A DNA stretch of 64,000 bases from Singulisphaera sp. GP187 (GCA_945905925.1 CAMDQN010000001.1:62001-126000); one strand, 5' to 3'. Counted from the first letter of the stretch, positions 5,686 through 39,813 are shown. A program made the numbers and translations. Notes: generated by a model from the sequence alone, not told the origin.

Positions 5686-5693
5686 CTCGATAC

Positions 5694-5740
5694 GCCGCTT
5701 GCGGCTTCGCGAGCGCCCCGCCCGCGAAGCCGCAAGCGGC
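5694..5740. repeat. Family B inverted repeat, perfect 18-bp arms
   Basis: GCCGCTTGCGGCTTCGCG (5694-5711) and its exact reverse complement (5723-5740) are separated by 11 nt. The stem follows the S1 gene stop by about 10 bp and precedes the MoxR start by 31 bp. It could form a terminator or processing hairpin, but no T-run follows. Confidence 0.9.
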
Positions 5741-5771
5741 GAAGAGAAGAGACCCACAAGAGGCCGCGCGC

Positions 5772-6737: not shown

Positions 6738-7867
6738 AACGCACTGTGGGCGAGGGCGCACCGTCACTTCAGTTCACCGAGTCCGGCCTTGCGTGGCTCG
6801 GCGTGGCGCTGCTGGTCGGCGGCGTCGCTTGGTACAAGAGCATCAACCTGGTGCTCCTCATCGTTTACGCTATGGTCGCGTTGGTGGCGCTGAACGGATT
6901 CCTCGCGTGGCGGAACGTGCGCCGCTCGCGGGCGAACCGGCTCGCGGTGCTCCCGCTGTTCGCGGGAGAACGGTCCCAATATGGCGTGCGCGTGACGAAC
7001 GACGCACAACACCCGGTCTCCGTCTCCGTCGAGGATCGATCCGCTGCGGGCACGACGAACTTCCTCGCGTACCGCGTGCCGCCAAACGGCGGAATCAACT
7101 GCCCTGCGTCGCGCGAATTCCCGAACCGCGGGCGATTCGCCGGACCACTCACGCTCCTGTCGAGTTTCCCGTTCGGCTTCGTGACGTGCCAGCGCCCCGC
7201 CGACGCGAGCGGCGAAGTGGTTGTACTCCCGCGCCCGGGGTTCGCGGAACCTGACGGGCTTCGGCGCTGGGTCTCGCGTCAAGCCGGCGGCGACGGGCGC
7301 GCTCGCAAGGTGCTGCGCCGCGTCACGACGGACCGGGCGGAAGTACGCGGCGTGCGCGCGTACCGGCCCGGCGATCCGATCCGCGATATTCATTGGCGCA
7401 CGACCGCGCGGCGCGGCGAGCCGATGGTGCGCGAGTACGACACCGCTCCCTCGCCGGAACTGGTTCTGGTCGTGGAAGCGTGGCTCCCGCTGAACCCCAC
7501 GCCCGCGGACCTCGACCAACTCGAAGCGGCGCTTAGTCTCGCGGTGACGATCGCGGTGACATGGCGTCATGCGTTCGACAGTCCCGTAACGATCGTTGTG
7601 CCGGGCGTGGGCGTCTCAACGGCCACTTCCGACGAACACCTGCGCGAGGCGCTAACGCCACTCGCGGACCTGCCCGGCGCTCCGAGTGTTGAGGCACCGC
7701 CCGCGTCCGCGTTCGCGGGGCGACTCGCGCGCGGCGCACGAGTTGTTGTGAGCAGCCGGCCGAACACGCCCTACGCTGGCGCGCTGGCGCGGTCGACGGG
7801 CAAGCCGTTCGCGACCGTCAGCCCCGGCGACCGGCTCCCGTGGTATCAGCCGCCGACTCTGAAGTAG
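6734..7867 (+). CDS. DUF58 (vWA-like) membrane-anchored protein
   Basis: A 377-residue protein with two adjacent membrane helices (about 18-58) and a DUF58 domain, recognised by the block VRAYRPGDPIRDIHWRTTAR at about 204-223. DUF58 proteins carry a vWA-like module and pair with MoxR ATPases. GTG 6734 is chosen because it overlaps the MoxR stop by four bases (GTGA), the normal coupling in this operon. The TAG stop at 7865-7867 forms part of the left terminus of a family A inverted repeat, which separates this gene from the transglutaminase gene. Confidence 0.9.
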   Translation: MKRTVGEGAPSLQFTESGLAWLGVALLVGGVAWYKSINLVLLIVYAMVALVALNGFLAWRNVRRSRANRLAVLPLFAGERSQYGVRVTNDAQHPVSVSVEDRSAAGTTNFLAYRVPPNGGINCPASREFPNRGRFAGPLTLLSSFPFGFVTCQRPADASGEVVVLPRPGFAEPDGLRRWVSRQAGGDGRARKVLRRVTTDRAEVRGVRAYRPGDPIRDIHWRTTARRGEPMVREYDTAPSPELVLVVEAWLPLNPTPADLDQLEAALSLAVTIAVTWRHAFDSPVTIVVPGVGVSTATSDEHLREALTPLADLPGAPSVEAPPASAFAGRLARGARVVVSSRPNTPYAGALARSTGKPFATVSPGDRLPWYQPPTLK

Positions 7868-7971
7868 GTGCCGCTTGCCGAGCGGCACGCGATAACCCAC
7901 GCTGGCGCGACGCGGACCTTCCCGAAGCGATTCGAGTTGTACAGCCGTGCCGCTCGGCAAGCGGCACCTAC
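7864..7971. repeat. Family A inverted-repeat element, copy 2
   Basis: A 108-bp element with near-perfect terminal arms of about 25 bp (TAGGTGCCGCTTGCC plus GAGCGGCAC). The inner part shares the reverse complement of ACAACTCGAATCG with copy 1. It begins within the DUF58 stop codon and ends 12 bp before the start of the next gene. It therefore occupies nearly the whole gap between two genes of one operon. Confidence 0.92.
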
Positions 7972-7983
7972 CCGAACGAACCC

Positions 7984-18346: not shown

Positions 18347-19393
18347 ATGAGCGATGGCATGATCGAAATTGACGGCTCGGAAGGCGAAGGCGGCGGGCAG
18401 ATCCTGCGGTCCGCGCTAGCGCTCTCGATCCTCACTGGGCGGCCGTTCAAACTGACTAACATTCGCGCGAACCGCAGCAAGCCGGGACTGCAACCGCAAC
18501 ACCTCATGTGTGTGCGCGCCGCGGGTACGATCAGCGGGGCGCAGTACAAGGGCGGGGCGGTCGGGTCGTCGGTGCTGTACTTCGAGCCGGGCGCGGTGAA
18601 GTCGGGCAACTACACCTTCAGCATCGGCACCGCGGGCGCGACGTCGCTCGTGCTTCACACCGTGTACCTGCCGCTCGCGCTCAGGTGTGAAGCCGCAACC
18701 AGCGTCACCATCACCGGCGGCACTCACAACGCACACGCGCCCTGCTACCACTTCCTCGAAACGACGTGGGCCGCGTACCTCGCGCGGCTCGGCATACGCG
18801 TCGAATTGGAAATGACGCGGCCCGGTTTCTACCCGCGCGGTGGCGGCGAGATCCGCGCCGTCATTCATCCCTGTACTAAAGTGAACGGGCTATCGTTGCT
18901 CACGTGCCCGGAGTTGACCACCGCGGGCGGATTCAGCGCGTTCGCGGGACTACCGGAATCGGTCGGGAGAAAACAGGCGGGGCGTCTCTCGGTGCGGCTG
19001 AAATCGGAAGGTGTCGAGTCACACATTCCGATGGAGGAGTGGGAGGCCGCGAACCCAGGAAGTGTCGCGGCCGTGATCTTCCGACAAGCCCCGGTGCCAC
19101 CACTGTTCTTCGGGTTAGGCGAACGCGGCAAACCCTCCGAAAGCGTCGCGGATGACGCGGCCGATGAAGCCATCGCGTTCCGCGACGCGAAGTGTCCCGT
19201 CGATCCGCATTCGGCCGATCAGTTGCTGCTCCCGCTCGCATTCAGCGACGACGCGAGCGAATACAAAACATCGGAAGTCACGCGACACCTGACAACCAAC
19301 GTGGAAACTGTGCGGCAATTTGCGGATCGTGTCATTCAGATTGATGATGGAGAGGGCAAATCGGGGGTTGTGCGCGTCAACCAACGGATATAA
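18347..19393 (+). CDS. rtcA: RNA 3'-terminal phosphate cyclase
   Basis: A 348-residue RtcA that uses ATP to turn RNA 3'-phosphates into 2',3'-cyclic phosphates. The nucleotide/substrate region GEGGGQILRSALALS lies near 11-25 and RANRSKPGLQPQH near 38-50. RLGIRVELEMTRPGFYPRGGG and the catalytic His314 in TRHLTTNVETV are family hallmarks. ATG 18347 gives the normal length; ATG 18359 is a possible internal start. No rtcB or rtcR lies nearby, which is unusual compared with the classical rtcBA operon. The FtsH-like cluster begins 82 bp downstream on the same strand, separated by a family B inverted repeat, so a link to that cluster is possible but unproven. Confidence 0.92.
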   Translation: MSDGMIEIDGSEGEGGGQILRSALALSILTGRPFKLTNIRANRSKPGLQPQHLMCVRAAGTISGAQYKGGAVGSSVLYFEPGAVKSGNYTFSIGTAGATSLVLHTVYLPLALRCEAATSVTITGGTHNAHAPCYHFLETTWAAYLARLGIRVELEMTRPGFYPRGGGEIRAVIHPCTKVNGLSLLTCPELTTAGGFSAFAGLPESVGRKQAGRLSVRLKSEGVESHIPMEEWEAANPGSVAAVIFRQAPVPPLFFGLGERGKPSESVADDAADEAIAFRDAKCPVDPHSADQLLLPLAFSDDASEYKTSEVTRHLTTNVETVRQFADRVIQIDDGEGKSGVVRVNQRI

Positions 19394-19475: not shown

Positions 19476-20150
19476 GTGGCCGAAGAATTGACTATGCAGA
19501 TCGCGCAGGTCGTCCCCTGCACCGAAGCCGAAGGGCCGGGCAAGCGGTTTGCGCTGTGGTTCCAGGGGTGCCCGCTGCGCTGCCCAGGGTGCTGCAACCC
19601 GGAGTTCCTCGCATTCAAGGGCGGCACGACCAAGACGCTCCGCGAAATGGCGGTGTGGATTCAGAAGGCGCGGGATGAAAGCGGCATCGAAGGGATCACG
19701 CTTCTCGGCGGCGAACCCACGTCACACGCGCCCGCCGCACTCGCGCTCGCGAAAGCGTCGCGCGAACTCGGGTTGTCTGTGATGGCCTTCAGCGGATTCA
19801 CCATCGAAGAGTTGCAGGAGCGAGCGGAACCGGACGTTGTGGAGCTGATCGGCTTGACGGATATTCTCGTCGATGGACCGTACCTTCGCGAGCAGCCCGA
19901 CACGGAGCGCCGGTGGATCGGCTCGAAGAACCAGCGCATCCACTTCTTGACGCCGCGATACTCTTATGACGAGCAGTGGCGCACGAAGAACACGTTGGAG
20001 ATTCGCGTCGTGGGGCGTGAGATCAGCGTGAATGGTTTTCCGGCCGCGAATGCTGTAGGCTTGTGGAAAGGCTGGAAGCGCAAAAAAACGGTTCCGCTAC
20101 CCGTTGTGACCGAGACGAAAAGTGCCGCTCAAGGGACCGACACGAAATGA
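19476..20150 (+). CDS. Radical SAM 4Fe-4S protein (activase-like) of the FtsH-like cluster
   Basis: A 224-residue radical S-adenosylmethionine protein. The cluster motif is GCPLRCPGC with Cys32, Cys36 and Cys39 (CxxxCxxC), followed by the GGE motif in LLGGEPTSHA near 78-87. Its compact size, early motif and WFQGCPLRC opening resemble NrdG/PflA-type activating enzymes and single-4Fe-4S-domain proteins. GTG 19476 is preferred because GGAG precedes it by 5 nt; ATG 19494 is the alternative. Its stop overlaps the next gene's ATG (ATGA), so the two are translationally coupled. It leads the FtsH-like cluster and may modify or activate a cluster protein; no glycyl-radical enzyme is nearby. Confidence 0.88.
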   Translation: MAEELTMQIAQVVPCTEAEGPGKRFALWFQGCPLRCPGCCNPEFLAFKGGTTKTLREMAVWIQKARDESGIEGITLLGGEPTSHAPAALALAKASRELGLSVMAFSGFTIEELQERAEPDVVELIGLTDILVDGPYLREQPDTERRWIGSKNQRIHFLTPRYSYDEQWRTKNTLEIRVVGREISVNGFPAANAVGLWKGWKRKKTVPLPVVTETKSAAQGTDTK

Positions 20151-21325
20151 CCCGTACCGTGCCCCCACCGACTCAACCGCCGGAACCGGACGGGCCGCGG
20201 CAGGTGTCGAAGTTCGAGTACAACCTGCTCCGCATCCTGAAATTCCTCGTCGGGCATTTTCCCGCCGACCAGGGGTTGCAACTCGTCCGCACCGCGACCA
20301 CCAAACCCGAATGCATCAGCGTGGGCGCGGTGGATCTGGTAAAGGACGTGTTGAGCAAGGCGCTGGTGTTGTTCCTCACGCGCGCCGGCGGCTGGCGGAA
20401 CGACAAGTATTTGCGGAATAACACGCCAGCAAGTGGTCGAGTCTGGGGTCGCATCCCACTCGACGAACGCACCCTTGAGTTCTCGCGCCCAGTGCTCGAC
20501 TTCCTGTTCTGGCTAACGGCCGAGAAGGTTCACGAAACGAAGCAAGCGTGGGACGCGGCCCCGAAGGCGCTCACACCGACCGACGAACTGTTCTTCGCAC
20601 TGGCCTTCGACGCGATGCGGTCGGATCCAGATGTGCTTGCGATGTTGCGGCGTAAAGACACGTTCTCGCGGAACCCATTCTGCTGGCTGACCGCACCGCA
20701 GGACGTGGCCGACCCGGAAGCGACCAAACCGCAGGCGCCCGACTTCACACCGATGTTCGGAGGTCTTCGCGCGGTCCTGTTGGAGTGCCTGCAAACGCAC
20801 TTAACACATCGTTGGATTCGCTCGGAGCGAGACAAGGGGCAACTAGGCGACTGGAAGCGGATGCGGCATCAAGGCAACGCAGAGTTCGTCGCGCTGCGCG
20901 ACTTCCTGAAGGCCGCGGAAGCCGCCCGACGCGCAGACCTTGCGAGGTTCGTGCTGCGAACCAACGCGGCCGTGCTTCAGTCTGACCTGACGCCAGTGTT
21001 CTGGACGGGTGGTTTGCAGGGTAGTGGCCCGCAGCGACTCGCTGACCGGCTCGAAACGCAGCGCGCCGCGCTCGCGTTTCCGCGACAGATGGAAACGCTC
21101 GAAGTTTGGCAGGAGCGTGCCCGCTACGTTGGGTACTTCGACGACGATTACCAGGCGAGCCAAATGTGGAAAGCCGACTGGGAAGCGGTGAATGGTGATC
21201 GCGTCGCCGCTCGCGCTCGCGCCGCGGTGGAGATGCTCGAACCGCTTCGCGGCCCGATCGCCGGCCAACCGGCCACGGGCACCGGAACACCCGGCGGCGA
21301 GAACCCCGAAGGCAGTTCCGGCTGA
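20147..21325 (+). CDS. Unknown cytosolic protein of the FtsH-like cluster
   Basis: A 392-residue soluble protein I cannot assign with confidence. It is mostly helical by composition, with Trp-rich patches such as LTRAGGWRNDKYLRN (about 78-92), LDFLFWLTAEKVHETKQAW and THRWIRSERDKGQLGDWKRM. The C-terminus is a Gly/Thr/Pro tail. It has no signal peptide or membrane helix. ATG 20147 overlaps the radical-SAM stop by four bases, so the pair is coupled. By position it could be one of the accessory 'X' domains reported with FtsH-type ternary systems. A domain search is needed to name it. Confidence 0.8.
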   Translation: MTRTVPPPTQPPEPDGPRQVSKFEYNLLRILKFLVGHFPADQGLQLVRTATTKPECISVGAVDLVKDVLSKALVLFLTRAGGWRNDKYLRNNTPASGRVWGRIPLDERTLEFSRPVLDFLFWLTAEKVHETKQAWDAAPKALTPTDELFFALAFDAMRSDPDVLAMLRRKDTFSRNPFCWLTAPQDVADPEATKPQAPDFTPMFGGLRAVLLECLQTHLTHRWIRSERDKGQLGDWKRMRHQGNAEFVALRDFLKAAEAARRADLARFVLRTNAAVLQSDLTPVFWTGGLQGSGPQRLADRLETQRAALAFPRQMETLEVWQERARYVGYFDDDYQASQMWKADWEAVNGDRVAARARAAVEMLEPLRGPIAGQPATGTGTPGGENPEGSSG

Positions 21326-21343
21326 GATTCCGAACGACGCTTT

Positions 21344-21403
21344 TGTAGGGTGGGCAGTGCCCACCTCTTCGTTAACCGAATGGTGGGCACTACCCACCCT
21401 ACA
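21344..21403. repeat. Family E inverted repeat, GTAGGGTGGGCA type
   Basis: TGTAGGGTGGGCAGTGCCCA at 21344 mirrors TGGGCACTACCCACCCTACA ending at 21403, with one mismatch in 20 pairs and nested self-complementary parts (GGGCAGTGCCC). The last bases join AAGGAG, the ribosome site of the next gene. A stem here would place that site at its foot. Confidence 0.88.
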
Positions 21404-21413
21404 AGGAGAAGAC

Positions 21414-21986
21414 ATGAGCCGCGCCTACCGCATTACCGTGAAAGAATCCGAGACCCGCAATCTCAAGGCCGGGGACGAGATCTGCACGGAACTCGAAATC
21501 CTCGAAATCCTGCCGCCCGAAGACATGGCCACGCTCCTCAAAGAGGAACTGAAAAAGCGCGGCTTTGAAGAGCAAGACGACGGCACGATGGTCCGTAAGG
21601 ACGGCGAACTGACGGTGAAGATCGACCCGTGCTCGGGCGAGGTTTCTGTCAAAGCCGAGACCGAAGAAACCGTGAACCAGGAAGCGAAGCGCGAGGCCAC
21701 CGGCTTCAACGACGTCGGCCCCAACGAGAAGAACCTCCGCGAGAAAGTCAAAGACCAACTCAAGCAAGACCTCGACAAGAAGTTCGACCAGGAGCAGTCG
21801 CGGCTTCAGGGCAAAGCGACCGAGGCGCTCGAAAAGCACCTGCAAGACCTTCAGCCCGAGATCAGCGAAGTCGTGAACCAGGTGACCCGCGACGCGCTCA
21901 AGCAGAAGGCCCAACAGATAGGCACCGTGAAGGAGATCAGCGAAGACGCCGAAAGCGGTTCGCTCACGATCAAGGTCGAAGTTTAG
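21414..21986 (+). CDS. Unknown coiled-coil-type protein of the FtsH-like cluster
   Basis: A 190-residue acidic soluble protein. The first 80 residues alternate strand- and helix-like segments (RAYRITVKESETRNL, then DMATLLKEELKKRGFEEQDD). Residues from about 98 to 170 are highly charged and helical (LREKVKDQLKQDLDKKFDQE), probably a coiled coil. The last residues GSLTIKVEV end in a strand. ATG 21414 follows AAGGAG. Neighbours are the unknown 392-residue protein and the FtsH-like peptidase. It could be an adaptor for the AAA+ ring, by analogy with coiled-coil adaptors; that is inference. Confidence 0.8.
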   Translation: MSRAYRITVKESETRNLKAGDEICTELEILEILPPEDMATLLKEELKKRGFEEQDDGTMVRKDGELTVKIDPCSGEVSVKAETEETVNQEAKREATGFNDVGPNEKNLREKVKDQLKQDLDKKFDQEQSRLQGKATEALEKHLQDLQPEISEVVNQVTRDALKQKAQQIGTVKEISEDAESGSLTIKVEV

Positions 21987-21989
21987 TGT

Positions 21990-22103
21990 TCGGTGTTTGG
22001 TGTTTAGTGTTTCGAGAACAGGTCGGGGTCATTTCTCCACCCTGTTCAGCCACTCAACGCTGAAGCCAAACGGGTCGTGACTAAAAACTAAACACAAAAC
22101 ACC
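21990..22103. repeat. Inverted repeat of GTGTTTGG/AAACAC type flanking the FtsH-like start
   Basis: TGGTGTTTAGTG near 21999 is complementary to ACTAAACACAAAACACC ending at 22103, with imperfect arms of about 19 bp around an 80-nt loop. The right arm ends 4 bp before the ATG of the FtsH-like gene. No clear ribosome site is present there. Confidence 0.6.
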
Positions 22104-22107
22104 ATCT

Positions 22108-24330
22108 ATGAGCATCACCATCACGGAAAAAGACCTGCCTTCCGCACTCACACCCGTGGAGGCGGTGGAAGCAGCATACAGTCAGGAACTCGCGGAGGTG
22201 GCGAGCAAGCTCATCCGCGGACTGCCCACACTCATCGAGTGCGACAAGGAACTCGCGCCGTACCTGTTCATGAACGTGCGCGACCGACTACGCCAGGCCA
22301 AACTGCAGTGCATCTATCTCGACGGGCGGCAACGCGACCCGCAACAAGGCGCGCTGCCGATGGGCCTTATCGGAACCATGATCGCGCAACTGCGCGACGC
22401 GGTCCGCGGAGCCACCGAGCGCCGCGTCGTCGTCCTGCCGCACCTCGACCTGCTCACCACGAGCCAGGGCGGGCTGACCGGCGAAGCACGCGAAGTGATT
22501 CCGCTCCTCTACGAGAACCCGGAACTGGTTTGGTTGGGCTTCAAGGATCCGTCGTTCCCGCTGCCGAAAGTCATCGAGAACCTCTTCCCGCACTGGTTGA
22601 GCATCCTCGGCATCTCGCGCAATCGACTGCGACACCTCATCACACAGAAAGAGTCACGGAAGTTCGGCAAGGACTTCTCGCCATGGCAGCTCTACAAGTA
22701 CGTCTCCGGTGTGAACGCGGTGCGCCTCCGCAGGTTGCTCTCGACCCTCGAGGGCGAAGACTACCCCGCTGACCCCAAGCGCGCGTACCATCAGGTGCGG
22801 CAATCCACCCTCAGCGGGAACATGGAGATTCCGTCCGTCGATCTCGAAAAGGAGATCGGCGGCTACAAGAAAGTGAAGTCGAAGCTCCAGAGCGAAATCC
22901 TCGACACGCTCTCGAAGCGCGACCGCGCGACCGACGCGGAGGAGATTGCGCGACTTGAAGAACTGATCCCGCGCGGCATGATCTTCTGGGGGCCGCCCGG
23001 TACCGGTAAGACGTACTTCGCGAAGGCCATCGCCGCCAGCATCGGGGCCGCGATCACCATTGTGAGCGGTCCCGAACTGAAGTCGAAGTGGGTCGGTGAG
23101 AGCGAAGAGAACCTGCGCCAGATCTTCCACAAGGCCAGGCAGTCAGCCCCGTCGATTATCGTGTTCGACGAAATCGACTCGTTCGCGACCGCGCGCGGTA
23201 CCTACACCGGCAGCGGCGTCGAACACTCGATGGTCAACCAACTGCTCACCGAAATGGACGGCTTCCACAAAGACGAACTCGTCTTCGTGGTCGGCACGAC
23301 CAACTTCGTGGAGTCGCTCGACCCCGCCCTCCTCCGCCCGGGTCGGTTCGAATTCCACATCCACATTCCGTACCCGGATGACGAGGACCGGAAGGCCATC
23401 TTCGAGATCTACAACAAGAAGATGAAGTTGCAGTTCACCGAAGAAGCGATGGAGTACGCGGTCAACCGCACCGGCAACCGGTACATGACAGCCACCGGCA
23501 CCGCGTTCAGCGGCGACCACGTCAACGCCATCTGCCGCTCGGTGGCGCGCCTCCGCATGCGCGAGGACGTGAAGGGCGATACCACGCCGAAGCTGATCGA
23601 GAAGGCGCTGACCGAGTTCGACGAGAAAGTGGAGTTGCACGAGAAGGACTTGCCGATCGTCGCGACGCACGAAGCCGGACACTTCTTGGTGTCCATCTTC
23701 TGCCCGCACCACGCGCCGCCCGAAAAGGTGACGATCCAGAGCGACATGCCGTGGGCACCATTCTTCACGCAGTTCAAGCACGAGAAGAAGCGGATCGGTA
23801 TGAGCCGGCTCGAACTGCTCGACATTCTCACCGTACTCTACGGCGGCATCGAAGCCGAGCGTCTGCTGTGCGGCGATGTCTCCACCGGCGCGAGCGGCAT
23901 GGGCAGTCCCGGCTCGGACCTGTACCGCGCCTCCGATATCGCGGAGATGCTCGTCGAGGTGTGCGGTATGAGTAACCTCGCCGCGCCGCTGCGGTCATTC
24001 CACGACCACGAAGGCAAGCGCGTGGTCCTGTCCGGGTCGATGGCCGAGGCGATTGACCGGCAGGTGAACACGATCATCGTGGAGGCACAAGCGAAGGCCT
24101 CCGCGATCCTTCTGAAGCACAAAGCCGACCTCATCAAGATTCGCGACGAACTGATGAAGGTGAAGACGATCGAGGGCGATCGCACACGCGACATCATCGA
24201 GGAACTGCGGGAGAAGTACCCTAAGGATGTGGGCGCACCTGGCCCGGAAGTGAAACTCGGTAGCGGCGCGGGCACCACGACCGACGCTACCAGCGCCGAG
24301 AAGAAGATCACGAAGAAGAAAGACGAGTAA
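22108..24330 (+). CDS. Soluble FtsH-like AAA+ zinc metallopeptidase
   Basis: A 740-residue ATP-dependent protease with the FtsH core but no membrane helix. Residues 1-260 form a divergent domain that looks like a degenerate AAA module (VVVLPHLDLL; PELVWLGFKDPSFPLP), reminiscent of Ycf46-like proteins. The active AAA+ domain has Walker A GPPGTGKT (295-302), Walker B VFDEID (352-357), GTTN sensor 1 and RPGRFEF with the arginine finger. The peptidase has HEAGH (521-525) and a third zinc ligand Asp604 in GSDLYRASDIAEM, so both activities should be intact. The C-terminus is Lys-rich. It is the central enzyme of the 19476-31819 cluster. Housekeeping FtsH has two N-terminal membrane helices, so this is a specialised paralogue. 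Confidence 0.92.
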   Translation: MSITITEKDLPSALTPVEAVEAAYSQELAEVASKLIRGLPTLIECDKELAPYLFMNVRDRLRQAKLQCIYLDGRQRDPQQGALPMGLIGTMIAQLRDAVRGATERRVVVLPHLDLLTTSQGGLTGEAREVIPLLYENPELVWLGFKDPSFPLPKVIENLFPHWLSILGISRNRLRHLITQKESRKFGKDFSPWQLYKYVSGVNAVRLRRLLSTLEGEDYPADPKRAYHQVRQSTLSGNMEIPSVDLEKEIGGYKKVKSKLQSEILDTLSKRDRATDAEEIARLEELIPRGMIFWGPPGTGKTYFAKAIAASIGAAITIVSGPELKSKWVGESEENLRQIFHKARQSAPSIIVFDEIDSFATARGTYTGSGVEHSMVNQLLTEMDGFHKDELVFVVGTTNFVESLDPALLRPGRFEFHIHIPYPDDEDRKAIFEIYNKKMKLQFTEEAMEYAVNRTGNRYMTATGTAFSGDHVNAICRSVARLRMREDVKGDTTPKLIEKALTEFDEKVELHEKDLPIVATHEAGHFLVSIFCPHHAPPEKVTIQSDMPWAPFFTQFKHEKKRIGMSRLELLDILTVLYGGIEAERLLCGDVSTGASGMGSPGSDLYRASDIAEMLVEVCGMSNLAAPLRSFHDHEGKRVVLSGSMAEAIDRQVNTIIVEAQAKASAILLKHKADLIKIRDELMKVKTIEGDRTRDIIEELREKYPKDVGAPGPEVKLGSGAGTTTDATSAEKKITKKKDE

Positions 24331-24334
24331 CGCC

Positions 24335-24405
24335 TCTTGTTAGCCGCAACCCCGGAGGGGTGCGCGAAAGTTCCGCGCACCCCTCCGGGGTTGCGGCTAA
24401 CAAGA
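24335..24405. repeat. Perfect 32-bp palindrome after the FtsH-like gene (family D)
   Basis: The left arm 24335-24366 starts TCTTGTTAGCCGCAACCCCG. The right arm 24374-24405 is its exact reverse complement, with a 7-nt loop AAAGTTC. This is the longest perfect stem in the window. It lies 4 bp after the FtsH-like stop and 22 bp before the next start. Confidence 0.95.
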
Positions 24406-24427
24406 CAAACAATACGCAGGAGAATAC

Positions 24428-24685
24428 ATGGCCGAAATGATTATCATGCTCCGGCGCGACCCGAACACCGGCAAGCAGAACATCATCATCAAACTCGACT
24501 CGGAGCCGGACGCGTTGCCGATCGAGCACGAGCAGATGCACAAGGCGCTCGCCGAGAAGGTTCTTGGCCGGAAGCTCGATGACAACGACGAAATCATCGT
24601 CGAGCGAGAGAGCGAGCAGCAACCCACCGGCCCGGTGTCGCAGCCCAACGAGCCGCAGAAACAGAAGCAGAGCAACAAAGGATAA
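24428..24685 (+). CDS. Small unknown protein, possibly beta-grasp, of the FtsH-like cluster
   Basis: An 85-residue protein. Residues 3-62 suggest a strand-strand-helix-strand order: EMIIMLRRD, NIIIKLDSE, HEQMHKALAEKVLG and EIIVERE. That order would suit a small ubiquitin- or YukD-like beta-grasp core, but this is a reading by eye only. Residues 63-85 are a Gln/Pro/Lys-rich tail. ATG 24428 has AGGAG upstream. It sits between the protease and the two giant paralogues. A tag, adaptor or small regulatory subunit is a reasonable guess. I do not recognise the family with certainty. Confidence 0.75.
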   Translation: MAEMIIMLRRDPNTGKQNIIIKLDSEPDALPIEHEQMHKALAEKVLGRKLDDNDEIIVERESEQQPTGPVSQPNEPQKQKQSNKG

Positions 24686-24698
24686 CCCCAGCACAACC

Positions 24699-24720
24699 CC
24701 CACCCATCGCAATGGGTGGG
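24699..24720. repeat. Short GC hairpin CCCACCCAT / ATGGGTGGG
   Basis: Nine perfect pairs around CGCA, 13 bp after the small protein's stop and about 50 bp before the next start. No T-run follows, so it is a weak terminator candidate, or an attenuating or RNA-stabilising stem. Confidence 0.7.
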
Positions 24721-24770
24721 CGTGATGCGATATCCACTTTCGGTCAAGCCACCAAGCACAGTAGAAGCCA

Positions 24771-27700
24771 ATGATCCTTCTGTTCCCCAACCTCGACACG
24801 ATCCGATTGGCACTCACCAGCGGCATCGTTCCCGCCGACGTCACGCTCACGCCCGCGGCAGTCAGCTTCAACGCCGAGGGGAAGATCTACGTCGAGCCGA
24901 CCGCGAACCTCTCGCGCGCGGTCACCAAGAACCTCGACCGCATCGGCGTGAAAGGCTCGAAGCGCCACGCCTCCGACGACCCCCAAGAAGTCACCTGCTG
25001 GCCGCAGTTGCTCCCGGTCACACGCGACACCGCGGCGCCCACCATCTCGAATCAGGCACCGGTTCTCTTCGAACTTGAGAAACCCGAAGACCTGTCCAGT
25101 CTGGTCGCGGAGATGTTGCGGTTGGGGAACGACCGGCAGGGTTTCCGGTGGTTCGCGGCCGACGGCGACAGTGAGAGCAAGCGAGTCCTGCTCCGCGTCA
25201 TCGGCCCGCCATACTACACGCTGCTCCGCGCGATTGACAAGGATTCGTCCGGCACTGCAGGAACCGTGCGTGCCTACCTGGAACGCGCGCCACGCGTGTG
25301 GGTCGAAGTCGGGCACACGCTCCCGCTCGCGTCGCAACTGCGCGTCGCCGACAAGCAACTCTTGTTGATCCGCGAACCGCGTGAATGGCTCTACCTGGAC
25401 GAATCGCCGTTCCAGGATGTCTACGACATCATGCAGTTCAAGTTGCCGGCATCGCCGGTCGGCTGGACCGAAGCCAAAGCGCCCAAGAAGATGTCCGTTC
25501 CGCTGAGGCTCACCGCGGGCAGCGGGAACGAAACCGCCGAACTGTGGGTGCTGCGCGAGAACGCGGTCGAGCAACTCGACACGCTCGTGCGTGACTCCGA
25601 TGAACGGTTGCTTCAGAGGCTCATGTTCGCGGTCGCCACCGACGCGAAGGGCGCGAGCACAGTCATCCTCCGCGTGCGGCCGTCGAAACTCACGCCTCCG
25701 GTACTCGCGATCGACAACGCGATCGCGTTCAAGCCGTTCTTGAAGCTCCCGAACCTGTTCCTGCCCGTCGGGCGCCGGCTGCACCCAACGCTGCGGCGCG
25801 ACGCGGTGCGCAAGCTCCTCGCCGACGACGCGGATCAAGTGGTGTGGCTCTACCCCGACGACAAGAACGGGTTCGTGCCGGAGTTCGTGCCGGACGCCGC
25901 GTTCCGCTCGCTCGAAGACTGGGTCGATTACGTCATTGAAGCGGAACAGCAACCGCTCGCCGCGTGGATCGAAGCGACGCGATTCGACTTCGACCACTTC
26001 GTCTGCAAGGACGTGGGCGGCCCAAAGACCAAGCCGGATAAATCTGACAAAGACCCGAAGGATCAGGACGACGTGAAGGCGCCGAAAGGCGGCGCGGCAC
26101 CAAAGGCCGGCGCAAAGGGCAAACCGACAGCGACCAAGCCGACAGCGACGGCCGAGTTCCTGCCGCCGGTCGAAGATGTGAAGAAGCCGAACGAGTGGAA
26201 GATTAAGGCGACCGAGTTGGAAGGGCAGTTCCTCGCGGTCGAAGGGTCGCTCGATTCACCGGAGCGGCAAGCGATCTGGCCGGAACTCGCGGCGGCATAC
26301 GCCGGCGCGAAGGAACCGATGGACGCGGCCATCTGCTGGCTCGACGCGCTTTGGGATTCGGACCCGCTGCCCCCGGAGTGGCTGGCGGGATGGGTCCGGA
26401 GCGAACTGCCGGACCACAAAAGCGCGACCATCAAGGCCGACGAGTACGACAAGCTCCTGAACCACACCGGCACGGGGTTGGCCGAGTCGCGCGCCGTGGT
26501 GTCCGCGTTCCTGTGGCTCGCGGCTCAGAACCCGGTTCCGCAGTGGCTCCTCACGCGGCTCCCCGCGGTCCAGAGCTACATGGAAACGCACGACAGTTCA
26601 CTGCCGGTGCGGGCTGTATGGCTCGTTGGCTTCAGGCTCGCGCAACTCTCCGGCGCCGACGTGCTGGGCCTCGCTCGCGTCCGCGACCGGCTGCTGAAGC
26701 GGTTGCTCGAACAGGGGCTGCAGGCCGAGCGCGACCTGCCGTACTTCCTCCGCGTCGCCGGTGTGAAGGACTCGGAGCGCATGCGCGTCGTGCGAGACAA
26801 GTCGATGGAGTTGCACGGGACGATCCGCAAGTGGCTCGACGATACCGCCGCGGTGCAGAAGAACGAGCACATCAAGACGAACCACCCGCTCGTGGACCTG
26901 CTGTTCGCGTTCGCGGTCGCAAAGCTCGGCGAAACGACACAGGCGAAGAAACTCCTCGACGACGCGAAGAAGGTGCTCGAAAAGCCGATCCCGACCTCGT
27001 GGCAGGACAACAAGCTGTTCGAGAACGTGGTGTCCGCGGTCGCGAGCAACTTCATGTACAAGGCGTACAAGTACCGCGTCGAGCAGGTGCTGGCCGGCAA
27101 GCAACCGACCGGTCAGTTGTCCGCGGAACTCACGGCCGAACTCGAAGAACTCGCGAACAAGGCGCGGACCGTCGGCACCAACAACCCGTTCCTGCGCGGC
27201 GAGTACGTCATCGGGCGTCTCCGCGAGCAATCGCGCATCCTCGAACCGCAAGAGCGGCTCGACCCGTACAGTTACTGGACCAAGAACCAGGATCCGCTGA
27301 AAAAGGAACTCGCGGATCTGCACACTGTCAAGGATCCGAACAAGCTCGCGGCCCGCATCCGCAAGCTCTACACGGACGGTGTCACCGGGAAGACGCTCAA
27401 GGAAGTGCAGTTCCACGTGTTGCACGAAGGGCTACCACTCGCGGCCCGCGGGAGCGAGAACTTCACCGTCGAGCTTCTCGCGCTAGTGCCCGCGGCGCTG
27501 CAAGGCACCGGTGCGGCTAACGAATCGCCGGACCTGCCGAAGAAGCAGGGCGAGTTACTGGAACGCGCGATGTTCCACGCGGGGCACTTCAACCGCGACG
27601 ACCTCGTAAAGAAGTTCGTGGACGACTTTACCACGCTCGTCCACTCGAAGCCGCAGGACATGCGGTTCAAGTTGATCAACGTGGTCGCGGGCCAGTGCAT

Positions 27701-28271
27701 GCGGAGCCTCAAGAAACTCGGCCTGTCGAACGAGATCGACCGGTTCCTGACGAAACTCCATAGCGAGGTATTGGGCGGCGCGTCCACCGCGGAACTGAAG
27801 AAGAAGCACCAGGCCAAGCCGGAGGTGTGGTCCGCGGTGCTTCAAACGCTGCTCAACCTCGCCGGCGGGTGGCTCCACTTCGGCCGTCAGGACCGGGCGG
27901 AACCGATCCTCGTCGAAGCGCGTAGCGAGTTGCTGAACCAGGGCGCGGTGTCACTCCAACCGAAGGACTACACCGAACTGGCGCGTGCCTACGTGACCGC
28001 GTTGGGCCAGGGTAACGCCGAAACCGCGTTGACGCGCATGATTGAGCTGTTCAAGAAAATGTCGCCCGCGAAGATCACGAACACGTGGACGACCGCGCAG
28101 TACTACTCGCGATTCCACCTGAACCTTGTGGAAGACGTGATTCGCGCCGTAGTGAACGAGGACGCGGCGCTCGGCCCGTCCGGCCGCCGGTGGCTCGACG
28201 ACGACGAATATCTGGTCCGTCGCCGCATCCACGCGGACATGAAGCGGAACCTGGAAAAGAACCACCTCTGA
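24771..28271 (+). CDS. Giant unknown protein 1 of the FtsH-like cluster
   Basis: A 1166-residue soluble protein and a paralogue of the next gene. Residues 1-410 form a mixed domain opening MILLFPNLDTIRLALTSGIV. A disordered Lys/Pro/Ala linker at about 417-461 (KPDKSDKDPKDQDD, GAAPKAGAKGKPTATK) leads to a long helical region of repeat-like character. Conserved blocks shared with the paralogue include DAAICWLDALW, ADVLGLARVRDRLLKRL and the C-terminal WLDDDEYLVRRRIHADM. There is no signal peptide, Walker motif or known catalytic motif. The TGA stop lies inside an 8-bp hairpin. A scaffold, sensor or substrate-recognition subunit for the protease is the simplest reading. Confidence 0.85.
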   Translation: MILLFPNLDTIRLALTSGIVPADVTLTPAAVSFNAEGKIYVEPTANLSRAVTKNLDRIGVKGSKRHASDDPQEVTCWPQLLPVTRDTAAPTISNQAPVLFELEKPEDLSSLVAEMLRLGNDRQGFRWFAADGDSESKRVLLRVIGPPYYTLLRAIDKDSSGTAGTVRAYLERAPRVWVEVGHTLPLASQLRVADKQLLLIREPREWLYLDESPFQDVYDIMQFKLPASPVGWTEAKAPKKMSVPLRLTAGSGNETAELWVLRENAVEQLDTLVRDSDERLLQRLMFAVATDAKGASTVILRVRPSKLTPPVLAIDNAIAFKPFLKLPNLFLPVGRRLHPTLRRDAVRKLLADDADQVVWLYPDDKNGFVPEFVPDAAFRSLEDWVDYVIEAEQQPLAAWIEATRFDFDHFVCKDVGGPKTKPDKSDKDPKDQDDVKAPKGGAAPKAGAKGKPTATKPTATAEFLPPVEDVKKPNEWKIKATELEGQFLAVEGSLDSPERQAIWPELAAAYAGAKEPMDAAICWLDALWDSDPLPPEWLAGWVRSELPDHKSATIKADEYDKLLNHTGTGLAESRAVVSAFLWLAAQNPVPQWLLTRLPAVQSYMETHDSSLPVRAVWLVGFRLAQLSGADVLGLARVRDRLLKRLLEQGLQAERDLPYFLRVAGVKDSERMRVVRDKSMELHGTIRKWLDDTAAVQKNEHIKTNHPLVDLLFAFAVAKLGETTQAKKLLDDAKKVLEKPIPTSWQDNKLFENVVSAVASNFMYKAYKYRVEQVLAGKQPTGQLSAELTAELEELANKARTVGTNNPFLRGEYVIGRLREQSRILEPQERLDPYSYWTKNQDPLKKELADLHTVKDPNKLAARIRKLYTDGVTGKTLKEVQFHVLHEGLPLAARGSENFTVELLALVPAALQGTGAANESPDLPKKQGELLERAMFHAGHFNRDDLVKKFVDDFTTLVHSKPQDMRFKLINVVAGQCMRSLKKLGLSNEIDRFLTKLHSEVLGGASTAELKKKHQAKPEVWSAVLQTLLNLAGGWLHFGRQDRAEPILVEARSELLNQGAVSLQPKDYTELARAYVTALGQGNAETALTRMIELFKKMSPAKITNTWTTAQYYSRFHLNLVEDVIRAVVNEDAALGPSGRRWLDDDEYLVRRRIHADMKRNLEKNHL

Positions 28272-28347
28272 CTTTCGGTCAGAGGCAATTCGAAGCACGA
28301 AATTCGAAAGAAGGCACCAGACGAACCGGTGTCTTCTTTCGAATTTC
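28264..28347. repeat. Two inverted repeats between the giant paralogues
   Basis: The first, CCTCTGAC-TTTCG-GTCAGAGG at about 28264-28284, includes the stop codon of the upstream gene. The second pairs GAAATTCGAAAGAAGGCACC (28299-28318) with GGTGTCTTCTTTCGAATTTC (28328-28347) with one mismatch. The second is AT-richer than its surroundings. Together they fill most of the gap before the start at 28382. Confidence 0.88.
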
Positions 28348-28381
28348 GAATTTCCCCCGCTTCGGGCACTACACTTCGGTC

Positions 28382-31300
28382 ATGCCCGCGCTGTTCTTCC
28401 CGAATCTGGATACGCTCCGACTCGCGCTCGCCAGCGGACTCGTGCCCACTCGGGTCACGTTGGCACCCGTGCGCGCCGGACTGGACGCTCCTCACCTCTG
28501 GCTCGATCTGGATGAACTCCTTCCGCGTGAAACGCTCACCGCGCTCGGGCGCCTCGGTGTTGTTGCGCTCGGCGCGCCGAGTGTGCCCACCTTACCGACC
28601 CGTTGTTGGGCCGAACTGCTCCCGCTCCGAAAAACCGTGCCCGGCACCGGGCCGGTTCTATTCGACGTGCCGGACAAGCACCTCACCACATTCGTCGCGC
28701 GCCTTCGGAGGCTCCGCGCCGGGCCAGCCGGTGTGTACCTGCTGCCCGAACCGCACGCGAGCCGCGCCTGGGTAACAGTTACTGCGCCGCCGCTCGCGGT
28801 TCTGTTGTGGACCGAGGAACCGGATTCGCCGATTTACGCGTACCAGAAGCAGTTACCGGAAGTTTGGACCGCGCGCGGCTGGGAACACCCGCTCGCGGGG
28901 CAACTCGTGATTCCGGTCGGGTGTGTCCTCCTGTGCGACCTGGAACGTGGCGTGACCGCGTTCGCCGCCCCAGTGCCGCCCCCCCTCAACGACGAGTTCT
29001 TCCTCCGGCGCCGACCCGCGACCGTGCCCGCAACCGGACGGCCGGCGCGAATCGAAGTCCGCCTCCGGCTCGCGCGGTGCGATGTCGCCGCGCCGGAATC
29101 ACTTTGGGTTCTCACGCCGCAAGAGCAAGACAGCTTCCGCGAGTTTTGTTGCGGTGCCGACGAACGACTCCTGCGCCGGTTCGAGATCGCGACTCTTCAG
29201 TCCGGTGAATCAACCCGACTGATCGTGCGGCGCGCGCCGGACGAAGACAGCGTGATCCTCCCGGTGGTGAGCGGCGGATATCGCGTCGATCCGCGGTTGC
29301 CGTCGCTGTTCGTTCCAGCAGGGTACGCGCTGCGCCCACGGACCCGCGCGGCCGAACTCGTGCGCGAGTTGGGCCTGACTTCCGACCGCGTGACGTGGCT
29401 CGAACCGACCGGCGCCGACGGGTTCACCGCGCACGCGGTCGCGGTCAGCACGTTCCGCCCGCTCTGCGACCTGCTCGAGTACAGCGCGGAACCGGCCTCG
29501 CCGATGACCGCGATGCGGATACCGGCCGACCCGTTCCCGTTCACGAAGTTCGCGCTCCGCCTCGATCCGGTCGCCGATCTCGAACCGGAGGACGGCGACG
29601 AACTGATTGAGGAAGAAGCGCCAGCGCCCGCCGAGGGCGAGCCGGGTTGGGTCGCGAAATCGGTTGGCAAAATGGTGCGATGGGTTCGGGGTCGTGCGCG
29701 CCCCGACCCCGCCGACGCGTCGGCGCCCGATCCCAAACCGCGACACGGCGAGCGGAAGTCACGTCACGCGGAACCGGCCGGCGGGCACGTCGAGCAGAAA
29801 CTAAGTTCCGCGGACGCGCTGTTGCACGGGTACGACCGCGCGGCCCGGCGCCACGAACTGGAAAACCGGTTGCTCGCGGACTTCCCGAAGCTCGGGCCGG
29901 ACGAGCGGGCGGCGCGCTGGGCCGAACTCGCGGGCGTCTACGGTGCGACCGGTCAGTCGCTCGACGCGGCCGTGTGCTGGGTGAACGCGACCTGGGAATA
30001 CGCCACCCCGCCGACGGAGTGGCTCGAACGCTGGGTCGATGCGGAGTGCCACGCGGCGAAGCGCGGCGACCGTTCGGCCGACCTCGACCGGTGGCTCGCC
30101 GAACCCGGGCGCCCCGGCACCGGGAGAGTGGTCGCCGCGCTCGCGGCACACGCCGGGTTCCAGCCGATGCCGGCACCGGAGTTCGTCGCGTTGCTTCCTC
30201 GCGTCCTCGCGGTGTTAGAACAGCATCTCGACGACATCCCCGTGCGTGGCGCGTGGCTGGCAAGGCTGGCGGTGGCGAGGTCGTGCGACGGCGACGTATT
30301 GGGTCTGGCGCGCTGGCGCGACAAGTTGATCCACCGGTTGCGCGATCGCGGACCTGGGCTGGATCTGGATGAACCGTCGTTCCTACGGTTCCATGGCACG
30401 GCGACCGCCGAGCGATTCAAGACCGCGCGTGAATGGCTCACACGCGTGAAGGAGCCGGTGTTGGCGTGGGTTCAGCGGCACGGCGGAAGCAATCGGATGC
30501 AGTGGACCGGCCTCGAAGCCGAAACGGAAGCGACCGCGATTTACGCACAGTTCATCCTCGCATGGGGATTGGGCGCGCTCGGCGAGAGAGCCAGAGCAAG
30601 AGATTGGTCGGCGCGCGCTCGCAAAGCACTTGCAAAAGTCGGAGGGCCGCGAGCTGACCCGGCCACACACGCGCTGCTCGGCGACCTGTTCTTACACCGC
30701 ATCAAGGAGGCACACGAAGGCCACACGCCGAAGCCCGGTCTACCGCCGGAATTGCGGGAGCGATTGGACGAGTTACCGTACTTCGCACGGTACTCGGTCG
30801 ACCGCATCCGCGAACACTGCCGCGTGCTTCAACCGCTCGGCGGGGGGCGCGGCTCCGCGCTGTCGTTGATGGTGTTCTGGGGAACCGACCGCCTCGGCGA
30901 GCGCCTCTCGGTACTCGACTCGCACACTGGCACGGCACAACTCAACGACGAGGCCCGCGCACTTCTGGGCATCGTCATAGAGGAATCGACCACCTCAACG
31001 GTGCCACGCGTCGTCTTCGCGCTGTTGGAAGTCGCTGGGTTACTGGAACTGTCCGTGCTCGAACCGCTCCTCGCGCTTGTCCCGGCGGCGCTGGACTGGA
31101 TGAACAACTGGGTCCGCCCGGGAAGAGACGAAAGCGAGGAGAATCGCGCCGGTCGCGTGCTGAAGTACCAGAAAACGATGATCGACGCAGCGTTCGCGGT
31201 CGCGCCGGCGGGCACCGCAACCGTACTGCTCCGCCACTTGACGCGCGGCGCGGCGACCGGACACTTGCTCGCGGCTGCGACCGCAACCGCACCACGAACG

Positions 31301-31819
31301 GGTCGAGCGGCTCGCAAGTTTGGGCTGGCCGCGGACGCCGAAGCCCTGATGAATGCGCTCGACCCGGCACGCGCGGAGTGGGGAAAGGCACCGGTCACGG
31401 CGGAGCGCGTCGGGTTGGCGGTCGGGTGGTTCGCGGCCGGCGACGAGGACGCCGCGAACCGCATTCTGAACGCGGCCCGCGAGCAACTGTTCCTGACCGC
31501 TCCCAACGACTTGCAGGACCGCACAGCCATCGCGCTGGCTTACGCGGAGGCGCTCGGGTTCGCCCCATCCGGCATCGCGCTCGGGCGCCTCGAAGAACTG
31601 TTCCAGCGCCTCGACCGCGTCACCGTGGGCGGGTCCACGAATTGCTACTTCACGCTGCAACCCCTGCGACTCATCGACACCGTGGTGAGGTCAGTGGTCA
31701 CGGACGAGTTTACACTCGGCGCCGCGGTCCGCGCTTGGCTCGACGAGGACGAGTTTCTCATCCGCCAGCGCGTTCACCGCGACATGGCCTCGCTTCTGTG
31801 CGAGAGCGAACTGGGTTAG
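28382..31819 (+). CDS. Giant unknown protein 2 of the FtsH-like cluster
   Basis: A 1145-residue soluble protein, clearly paralogous to the preceding one along its whole length. The N-terminus MPALFFPNLDTLRLALASGLV mirrors its opening, and DAAVCWVNATW, GDVLGLARWRDKLIHRL and WLDEDEFLIRQRVHRDM mirror its later blocks. The disordered linker is in the same place (about 399-472) but is acidic then Arg/Pro-rich, so linkers diverged faster than domains. ATG 28382 is chosen because it aligns with the paralogue's start; the frame is open further upstream across the inverted repeats. No catalytic motif is seen. Two diverged copies suggest a heterodimer or two specificities. Confidence 0.85.
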   Translation: MPALFFPNLDTLRLALASGLVPTRVTLAPVRAGLDAPHLWLDLDELLPRETLTALGRLGVVALGAPSVPTLPTRCWAELLPLRKTVPGTGPVLFDVPDKHLTTFVARLRRLRAGPAGVYLLPEPHASRAWVTVTAPPLAVLLWTEEPDSPIYAYQKQLPEVWTARGWEHPLAGQLVIPVGCVLLCDLERGVTAFAAPVPPPLNDEFFLRRRPATVPATGRPARIEVRLRLARCDVAAPESLWVLTPQEQDSFREFCCGADERLLRRFEIATLQSGESTRLIVRRAPDEDSVILPVVSGGYRVDPRLPSLFVPAGYALRPRTRAAELVRELGLTSDRVTWLEPTGADGFTAHAVAVSTFRPLCDLLEYSAEPASPMTAMRIPADPFPFTKFALRLDPVADLEPEDGDELIEEEAPAPAEGEPGWVAKSVGKMVRWVRGRARPDPADASAPDPKPRHGERKSRHAEPAGGHVEQKLSSADALLHGYDRAARRHELENRLLADFPKLGPDERAARWAELAGVYGATGQSLDAAVCWVNATWEYATPPTEWLERWVDAECHAAKRGDRSADLDRWLAEPGRPGTGRVVAALAAHAGFQPMPAPEFVALLPRVLAVLEQHLDDIPVRGAWLARLAVARSCDGDVLGLARWRDKLIHRLRDRGPGLDLDEPSFLRFHGTATAERFKTAREWLTRVKEPVLAWVQRHGGSNRMQWTGLEAETEATAIYAQFILAWGLGALGERARARDWSARARKALAKVGGPRADPATHALLGDLFLHRIKEAHEGHTPKPGLPPELRERLDELPYFARYSVDRIREHCRVLQPLGGGRGSALSLMVFWGTDRLGERLSVLDSHTGTAQLNDEARALLGIVIEESTTSTVPRVVFALLEVAGLLELSVLEPLLALVPAALDWMNNWVRPGRDESEENRAGRVLKYQKTMIDAAFAVAPAGTATVLLRHLTRGAATGHLLAAATATAPRTGRAARKFGLAADAEALMNALDPARAEWGKAPVTAERVGLAVGWFAAGDEDAANRILNAAREQLFLTAPNDLQDRTAIALAYAEALGFAPSGIALGRLEELFQRLDRVTVGGSTNCYFTLQPLRLIDTVVRSVVTDEFTLGAAVRAWLDEDEFLIRQRVHRDMASLLCESELG

Positions 31820-38220: not shown

Positions 38221-39813
38221 ATGAAACGGTTCGCAAGATCACTCTCCCGCGCCGGGACGCTCCTCGGCCTCGTCGCTCTGGTGCTATGCATCAACCAACC
38301 CGCGACGGGGGACGCCGCGCAGCCCCCGCCCGCCGCGCCGGGCACCGAACACACCTACGTCGGCACGCTCACCGGCGGTGACGATTCCGCCCGCATCGGG
38401 GTGGTCGTCGATGACAAGAACTTCCTGGCCTACGTGTGCAGCCAGGACAAGGAGTTCAACGCGGAACACGCGGCTTGGTTCAAAGGCGCCCGCAGCGATG
38501 ACGAACTCGAAGCGACGAACACCGGGCGCACGCTGAAGGCGACCGTCGCCGCCGACCAGGTGATCGGTGAACTCAGGTCCGGCGACAAGACGATGACCTT
38601 CACCGCGAAAGCGTGCGACGACCACATGGTGGCCGGGTTGTACCGCGCGGAAGAAACCGACGACGGACAGAAGTGCGTGTTCGGCTGGGTCATCGACGAG
38701 GACGGTTTCGTCGCTGGCGGCATTCAGCGGCAGAACTTGAAGGGCACGGGCGTGGTTCCCAACAACGGCGTCCTCGGTGGCGTCAACGGACAGGTTAACC
38801 CGAAGGCGAACCCGATTGCCGGGCAACGCGTGCAGAACCCCGCGAACCCGCCCACGGGCAGGAAGGTGAAAGGCTTCTCGCCCGCGCGACGTCAGGAGTT
38901 CCTCGACCGCATCCAGGCCAAGACACCCCAGAACGGCAACCCACTTCTGCCCGGTCTGATCCACCTCGTCAAGCGGTTCAACTCGGGAGTGAAGCCGGAA
39001 AACCCAGTGGAAGAGGCCGCGTTCGCCCAGTTCCGCAAGTTGCCCAAGCAGTCACTCGTCGATTACGTTAACAACTGGGAGAAGATTCCGCTCGCGGTGC
39101 GCCAGCGGTTGGCCGGGCCGGAATTGGCGAACATGGACCCGAAAAAGGCAGTCACGGCCGAGCGCATCTCGGCACTCGTAAAGCAAACCGGCCTCCAACC
39201 GGCCGGGCCGCCCGTGACACGTTCGGCCGTCACGCCGATCGTGAAGCAGGTGAAGATCAAAGAACTGAAGGCGCTGGACACGACGGGTGAGGCGAAGGAC
39301 GAAATCTTCGCGATCTATGTGATCGGCACCGGAAACCAGTTGTTCACCAAGACGACCGCGGTGATCGAAAAGGTGGGCAACGGTGACACGAAGAACTTCG
39401 CTGCGGCAGACCAGATCGTCTTCCCTCCGGCAGAACAGCCAAACTTGGTGTCCGCCGAGGACGTGTTGGTGACAGCCACGTTGTTCGAGCAGGACGGGAA
39501 CGTCGCGCTCATCAAGAACTTGGTGAAGGTGCTCGTGGACGCAGCCATCGTGACCGTCGCGATCGTCACCGCGCCGGCGGGCGCCGCGGCCGGCGGGTTC
39601 GTGGTGCCAGCCAACCTGCTCATCGACCAAATCGCCGCCGGTATCCCGGATGCCCAGACGCTCGGCACGGACACCTTCCGCGCCACGCCCGACGGGAAGA
39701 TCAGGGAGATCAGCAACAACTCCTCGAAGACCGAACTGAAGTTCAAGGAGACGGCCAAGAAAGGCCCCGGCCCATTCGACTTCCGGCTCCGGGGCCTCGA
39801 CGTGAAGAACTAG
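38221..39813 (+). CDS. Secreted protein of unknown function
   Basis: A 530-residue exported protein. A signal peptide (about 1-33, ending near NQPATGDAA) is followed by a beta-rich domain (about 43-165) with HTYVGTLTGGDDSARIGVVV and KCVFGWVIDEDGFVAGG. Then come an Asn/Pro/Gly linker and a C-terminal part with a hydrophobic Ala/Val/Gly stretch near 435-465 that could insert in a membrane. ATG 38221 is supported by GGGAGG upstream. I do not recognise the family. A strong 14-bp terminator hairpin follows, so it is a single-gene unit. Confidence 0.8.
   Translation: MKRFARSLSRAGTLLGLVALVLCINQPATGDAAQPPPAAPGTEHTYVGTLTGGDDSARIGVVVDDKNFLAYVCSQDKEFNAEHAAWFKGARSDDELEATNTGRTLKATVAADQVIGELRSGDKTMTFTAKACDDHMVAGLYRAEETDDGQKCVFGWVIDEDGFVAGGIQRQNLKGTGVVPNNGVLGGVNGQVNPKANPIAGQRVQNPANPPTGRKVKGFSPARRQEFLDRIQAKTPQNGNPLLPGLIHLVKRFNSGVKPENPVEEAAFAQFRKLPKQSLVDYVNNWEKIPLAVRQRLAGPELANMDPKKAVTAERISALVKQTGLQPAGPPVTRSAVTPIVKQVKIKELKALDTTGEAKDEIFAIYVIGTGNQLFTKTTAVIEKVGNGDTKNFAAADQIVFPPAEQPNLVSAEDVLVTATLFEQDGNVALIKNLVKVLVDAAIVTVAIVTAPAGAAAGGFVVPANLLIDQIAAGIPDAQTLGTDTFRATPDGKIREISNNSSKTELKFKETAKKGPGPFDFRLRGLDVKN

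Follow-up and report, generated by a model that had tools for sequence, protein, structure and literature searches.

Seven co-directional ORFs were found on the + strand at 19476-31819 of the window (the whole stretch of 64,000 nucleotides that was analysed), separated by -4 to +121 bases, as had been noted in a preliminary description of this DNA. The starts of X6, X5 and X7b were corrected by homology to 20147, 21414 and 28382, respectively. The conserved cluster starts one gene upstream of the radical-SAM gene, with an RtcA-type gene at 18347-19393, whose ORF has a possible start from 18170 and whose start in relatives fits 18347. The features of the locus are as follows:

18347..19393, + strand: RNA 3'-terminal phosphate cyclase (RtcA-type); PF01137, E 4.6e-72
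19476..20150, + strand: small radical-SAM protein, NrdG/PFL-activase-like, with the cluster motif CPLRCPGC; PF13353, E 3.6e-32
20147..20150, + strand: ATGA overlap of the radical-SAM stop and the X6 start (sequence)
20147..21325, + strand: fvmX6, all-helical, 392 aa; PF20004, E 1.1e-177
21414..21986, + strand: fvmX5, 190 aa, with a mixed N-terminal part and a long helical C-terminal region; PF20003, E 1.3e-87, and alignment
22108..24330, + strand: soluble FtsH-like AAA+ zinc peptidase, 740 aa; PF00004, E 4.9e-43, and PF01434, E 2.3e-26
22108..22842, + strand: N-terminal region of the FtsH-like protein, aa 1-245, without P-loop, found by co-occurrence to be specific to the FtsH ternary system, a putative inactive AAA domain (alignment; weak hhalign match)
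22978..23373, + strand: active AAA+ domain, aa 291-422 (Pfam)
23638..24192, + strand: M41 zinc peptidase domain, aa 511-695 (Pfam), with HEAGH at 23668-23682
24428..24685, + strand: fvmX3-analog, 85 aa, with an EHExxH motif; PF20002, E 6.3e-35
24771..28271, + strand: fvmX7 copy a (X7a), 1166 aa; PF20005, E 6.8e-134
28382..31819, + strand: fvmX7 copy b (X7b), 1145 aa; PF20005, E 7.9e-88

The ATGA overlap between the radical-SAM gene and X6 suggests translational coupling of the two. Elsewhere in the window, at 38221-39813, a 530-aa ORF gave no Pfam match at E 0.001.

The five proteins left without a recognisable function in the preliminary description fall into four types, all of which were matched by Pfam families (fvmX6, fvmX5, fvmX3-analog and, twice, fvmX7) at E 6e-35 to 1e-177; none matched an unrelated housekeeping family, and the two giant paralogues are both fvmX7 (PF20005). 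These families were written for the FtsH ternary (FtsH-vWA-MoxR) system described by Kaur, Burroughs, Iyer and Aravind (eLife 2020, PMC7159879), so that the earlier likening to such a system is borne out by its curated domains. According to these profile matches, the cluster is the FtsH/X part, the larger part, of a simple-type FtsH ternary system; the system and its domain families were already published and the cluster is a further instance of them. A radical-SAM leader was not associated with such systems in the preliminary description, but the accessible text of Kaur et al. (PMC7159879) gives a radical-SAM gene among the components of the simple subtype, so that one is expected here. In the same text the MoxR of these systems is described as often having a GXXXTAKS P-loop. 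An FtsH-type AAA+ protein with active P-loop and Walker B, the X families and a stand-alone radical-SAM protein were found at the locus, and a helical_N-vWA protein and a MoxR elsewhere in the genome, so that the FtsH-like AAA+ protein, helical_N-ivWA, GXXXTAKS MoxR, radical-SAM gene, X3-analog, X5, X6 and X7 are all shared with the published simple subtype. In contrast to that subtype, the window's genome carries ivWA and MoxR away from the FtsH operon, X7 is duplicated, an RtcA-type gene heads the run, and within the genus the gene content does not vary and is inherited vertically. In the open-access literature, as far as its accessible text extends, no description was found of the genes of this system being dispersed yet retained, of an RtcA gene next to them or of HExxH in X3, and no FtsH ternary system with experimental data came to light there.

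The FtsH-like protein contains the P-loop GPPGTGKT, the Walker B motif VFDEID and HEAGH as residues 521-525. From the alignment and from general knowledge of M41 peptidases, the third zinc ligand is presumably D604. The M41 catalytic motifs were intact in every full-length copy scanned. By hydropathy scan no membrane-helix-like stretch was detected (maximum 19-residue hydropathy 1.45), the N-terminal transmembrane helices of canonical FtsH included, in agreement with the earlier account of a peptidase with Walker A/B, HEAGH and third zinc ligand and without membrane helices. The AAA+ domain and the M41 zinc peptidase domain (HExxH plus downstream Asp) are shared with the canonical membrane protease FtsH (M41), from which the protein differs by its missing transmembrane helices, by an extra 245-aa N-terminal region and by a score of 256 bits against an FtsH cut-off of 600 bits. 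In the alignment this N-region was without P-loop in all relatives; its VVVLPHLDLL was aligned by hhalign to a Walker B strand (E 0.098, a weak match), and a search of the region against the PDB gave no match. Its assignment as an inactive AAA domain is tentative. The best solved-structure sequence relatives of the AAA module were VCP-like ATPases. With Cdc48/VCP and other two-ring AAA+ unfoldases the protein shares AAA-module sequence relatedness and possibly two AAA tiers, whereas it carries its own peptidase domain and its putative first tier is degenerate.

Several further copies of parts of this protein were observed. Stand-alone proteins of about 180-260 aa, which match the FtsH N-region only and are without AAA or peptidase domains, occur in five Gemmata genomes (L251 7815-8366, L252 7895-8446, L253 8064-8648, L254 7903-8685 and L255 7574-8164) and are possible regulators. 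Two Gemmata genomes have, away from the main cluster, a second FtsH-like paralogue that is divergent, with about 40% identity (L256 9061-11211 and L257 9921-11417). X6-X5-FtsH was also found on a contig labelled as a Deltaproteobacteria MAG (L100 1-3179), with an FtsH 62% identical to that of the window, which reflects either a horizontal acquisition or an error in binning.

The AlphaFold model of X6 (pLDDT 79) is helical and gave no useful structural match in the PDB, and only weak helical matches were obtained with the X5 profile against the PDB. In the AlphaFold model of X7a (pLDDT 78), a disordered linker joins an N-terminal alpha/beta domain (aa 1-384) to a helical solenoid that makes up the C-terminal part (aa 473-1163). 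In a structure search of the PDB with the model, the C-terminal half matched many HEAT/karyopherin-type solenoids (Z 9-14), a likeness to scaffolds that is generic and may reflect a common arrangement only. X7b is the fastest-evolving member and lies apart from the remaining genes in some relatives. The EHExxH motif of the X3-analog was present in the copies of 29/29 genomes, though identity drops to 24-36% in distant ones, and it may be a metal site of this very small protein. Relationship of X3 to beta-grasp proteins, as had been proposed earlier, or to DUF2997 was rejected, Pfam at E up to 10 returning only fvmX3-analog and fvmX3; a PDB profile search with X3 gave nothing clear.

The radical-SAM protein has the minimal radical-SAM fold and CX3CX2C of NrdG and the pyruvate formate-lyase activases. 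It differs from these in scoring under the NrdG cut-off (98.5 bits to TIGR02491 against 126.1) and in being co-inherited with the FtsH ternary system. In most Gemmataceae the RtcA-type gene is the immediate upstream neighbour of the radical-SAM gene, which it overlaps or abuts in some (L090, L098 and L102). RtcA as an obligate partner was rejected by the co-occurrence test, since it is present without the system and missing from some system-bearing genomes.

Within the window, no vWA or MoxR gene of the FtsH ternary kind is adjacent to the cluster, as had been stated earlier; both, however, are in the genome and co-inherited with it. The sole ivWA match in the genome is a 490-aa protein on contig C56 (G000:C56; PF19996, E 3.5e-31, and PF19997, E 2.9e-42), and a bpMoxR-type gene with GPPGTAKS lies on contig C17 (G000:C17; E 2.2e-63). 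The GPPGTAKS MoxR was orthologous in the 27 genomes scanned, and nearly all copies of ivWA were without the usual DxSxS metal motif. Where MoxR and ivWA stand alone, the genes around them vary among relatives. A MoxR-DUF58-transglutaminase-type run at 5682-10287 was considered as the missing MoxR and rejected, being an ordinary MoxR cluster with only 46 bits to bpMoxR.

About 18 genomes, from at least seven genera, have the order radical-SAM/X6/X5/FtsH/X3/X7a; RtcA usually precedes it and X7b often follows. Because the order recurs in this way, the seven-gene cluster is not due to chance, and its neighbours do not vary freely among relatives. X6-X5-FtsH-X3-X7-MoxR-ivWA form one run in G049, with the radical-SAM gene 1.7 Mb away, and in G418 the genes from RtcA to X7b are followed by MoxR, with ivWA elsewhere. 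Three blocks (radical-SAM-X6-X5-FtsH, X3-X7 and ivWA-MoxR) were found in G031; RtcA-radical-SAM-X6-X5-X7, FtsH, X3-MoxR and ivWA lie apart in G030; and X7 is linked to MoxR in G034. A single run of FtsH, a 916-aa protein, MoxR, ivWA, radical-SAM, a 300-aa protein and X5 was present in the distant phylum member G102, and the linked state was also found in the distant G097. The break points vary by genus, and the simplest reading is that an ancestral single run would have been broken at different points in each genus, with its parts retained.

X7 was detected in 32/59 and ivWA in 31/59 of the relatives' genomes, and the FtsH N-region in 30/59 with the same pattern. In 48 good genomes, X7 and ivWA were present together in 27 and both absent in 21; the probability of this match (4e-14) assumes independent genomes and, these genomes being related, is a guide only. 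The exceptions were all incomplete genomes, namely G006, which has ivWA and in which the contig ends inside the operon, shortly after the FtsH start (L274), and G015 and G018, which are 65-68% complete. The radical-SAM gene was found in nearly all system-bearing genomes, and three more distant homologues in genomes without the system. The MoxR class of about 200 bits occurred in the same genomes as the system, its orthology being checked by neighbourhood comparison. Through Gemmataceae the co-inheritance of X7, FtsH, radical-SAM, ivWA and MoxR is strict despite the differing operon breaks. In the phylum at large, ivWA was found in 17/391 and X6 in 12/391 genomes, every genome with X6 also having ivWA. 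One genome, G034 (L074 8461-14285; L120), has X7, X3, MoxR, ivWA and radical-SAM, and the FtsH N-region was not found in it; this could be an assembly loss or a protease-free system, and mutual dependence of the parts may not hold in every case.

The set is universal within Gemmata and is kept in nearly the whole Gemmata family (Gemmataceae). Median identities within the genus were 0.79 for AlaRS, 0.87 for FtsH, 0.87 for MoxR and 0.86 for X5, FtsH and MoxR thus being conserved as much as AlaRS or more, and 0.74 for ivWA, 0.72 for X6, 0.72 for radical-SAM, 0.70 for X7a and 0.50 for X7b. The trees of the system genes had 5-10/17 splits in common with the AlaRS tree, against about 0.2-0.3 with shuffled names, and some strongly supported splits of the system trees conflict with AlaRS. 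Pairwise dN/dS was 0-0.24 for all genes (0.08-0.21 for X7b), values which indicate that all of them are under purifying selection. The lineages without the system are scattered over several places of the AlaRS tree, and because of this a joint loss of the unlinked genes more than once is suggested; the tree was built from BLAST-trimmed rows, with two partial rows and some incomplete genomes, and the placement of the system-lacking lineages is rough.

We consider it likely that the locus belongs to a simple-type FtsH ternary system with its vWA and MoxR elsewhere in the genome, and that in Gemmata this system is a vertically kept, constitutive proteolysis or remodelling machine and not a mobile defence cassette. 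We infer the complex, its gating and its substrates as follows. The FtsH-like protein would form a cytosolic two-tier hexamer with an inactive N-terminal AAA tier, an active AAA+ tier and the zinc peptidase. X7a and X7b may be large solenoid scaffolds or substrate adaptors that act together with X5 and X6; the MoxR-ivWA pair would gate or remodel the complex, and the radical-SAM enzyme may modify a protein or peptide of the system. The whole would act in Gemmata as a slow-evolving machine for constitutive regulated proteolysis or complex remodelling. A stronger form of the proposal is put forward tentatively, at a little less than even probability: that the system of Gemmataceae is now a core machine for standing regulated proteolysis, namely a soluble two-tier AAA+ protease with gating by MoxR/vWA and with solenoid proteins as adaptors. 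Its former operon would be breaking up throughout the family, since the genes would have ceased to be passed on as one mobile unit.

The idea that the window's cluster alone is a derived FtsH-X machine, with MoxR and vWA no longer used, has in its favour that no such gene is adjacent in the window, and it is very improbable: though unlinked, ivWA and the GPPGTAKS MoxR follow the cluster genome by genome in retention and in loss, and partial linkages still join MoxR to X7, X3 and ivWA. A maturation machine, in which MoxR-ivWA and the radical-SAM enzyme would install a cofactor or radical in a target, like the metal insertion by NorQ-NorD, and FtsH and X3 would clear failed products, fits the known role of MoxR-vWA pairs in complex maturation and metal insertion (NorQD papers), the small activase-type radical-SAM enzyme, and the invariant HExxH by which X3 could hold a metal. 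We regard it as improbable, since no candidate target enzyme was linked or co-inherited in the data examined, the M41 catalytic motifs are intact in all full-length copies scanned and the DxSxS metal motif is missing from nearly all ivWA copies.

The more serious contender is a system of biological conflict (antiviral or cell-suicide), off until X7 senses an invader, upon which MoxR-vWA and FtsH would release or degrade an effector. In the accessible text of Kaur et al. (PMC7159879) such a role was proposed for the family, on the basis of its enrichment in multicellular bacteria and of parts common with other ternary systems, and the argument there draws on constant cores with effectors varying between close relatives. 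That X7b evolves fastest, with a median identity of 50% within the genus where AlaRS has 79%, and that the system is sparse in the phylum outside Gemmataceae both point the same way; such sparseness resembles accessory systems and counts against a constitutive role. On the other hand, no variable effector was seen, gene content and order being constant in the genus (an unlinked effector is possible), all genes including X7b are under purifying selection, and there are no defence-family neighbours above weak scores, PADLOC giving no system match beyond generic AAA and weak matches. Loss of linkage without gene loss would also be unexpected for a horizontally spread defence set. The distribution itself, universal in the genus with largely AlaRS-like trees, is yet sparse in the phylum, and purifying selection would also follow from a constitutive immune role. 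We therefore judge the conflict role rather unlikely here, and more weight is given to a constitutive role than to defence for the Gemmata lineage, standing immunity being possible, because no variable component and no defence neighbours beyond weak scores were found and the set occurs throughout the genus. Of the preliminary suggestion of a proteolysis or defence module, regulated proteolysis is a reasonable inference, while the defence half finds no support in the near-universal retention, the break-up of the operon without loss, the purifying selection and the constant gene content.

For the biology of Gemmata, the parts list of radical-SAM, X3, X5, X6, X7a/b, FtsH, MoxR and ivWA, the unlinked ones included, is a guide to the genes to be taken into experiments, and the Gemmata set offers a way to test whether the family provides mobile immunity or is a standing proteolysis machine.
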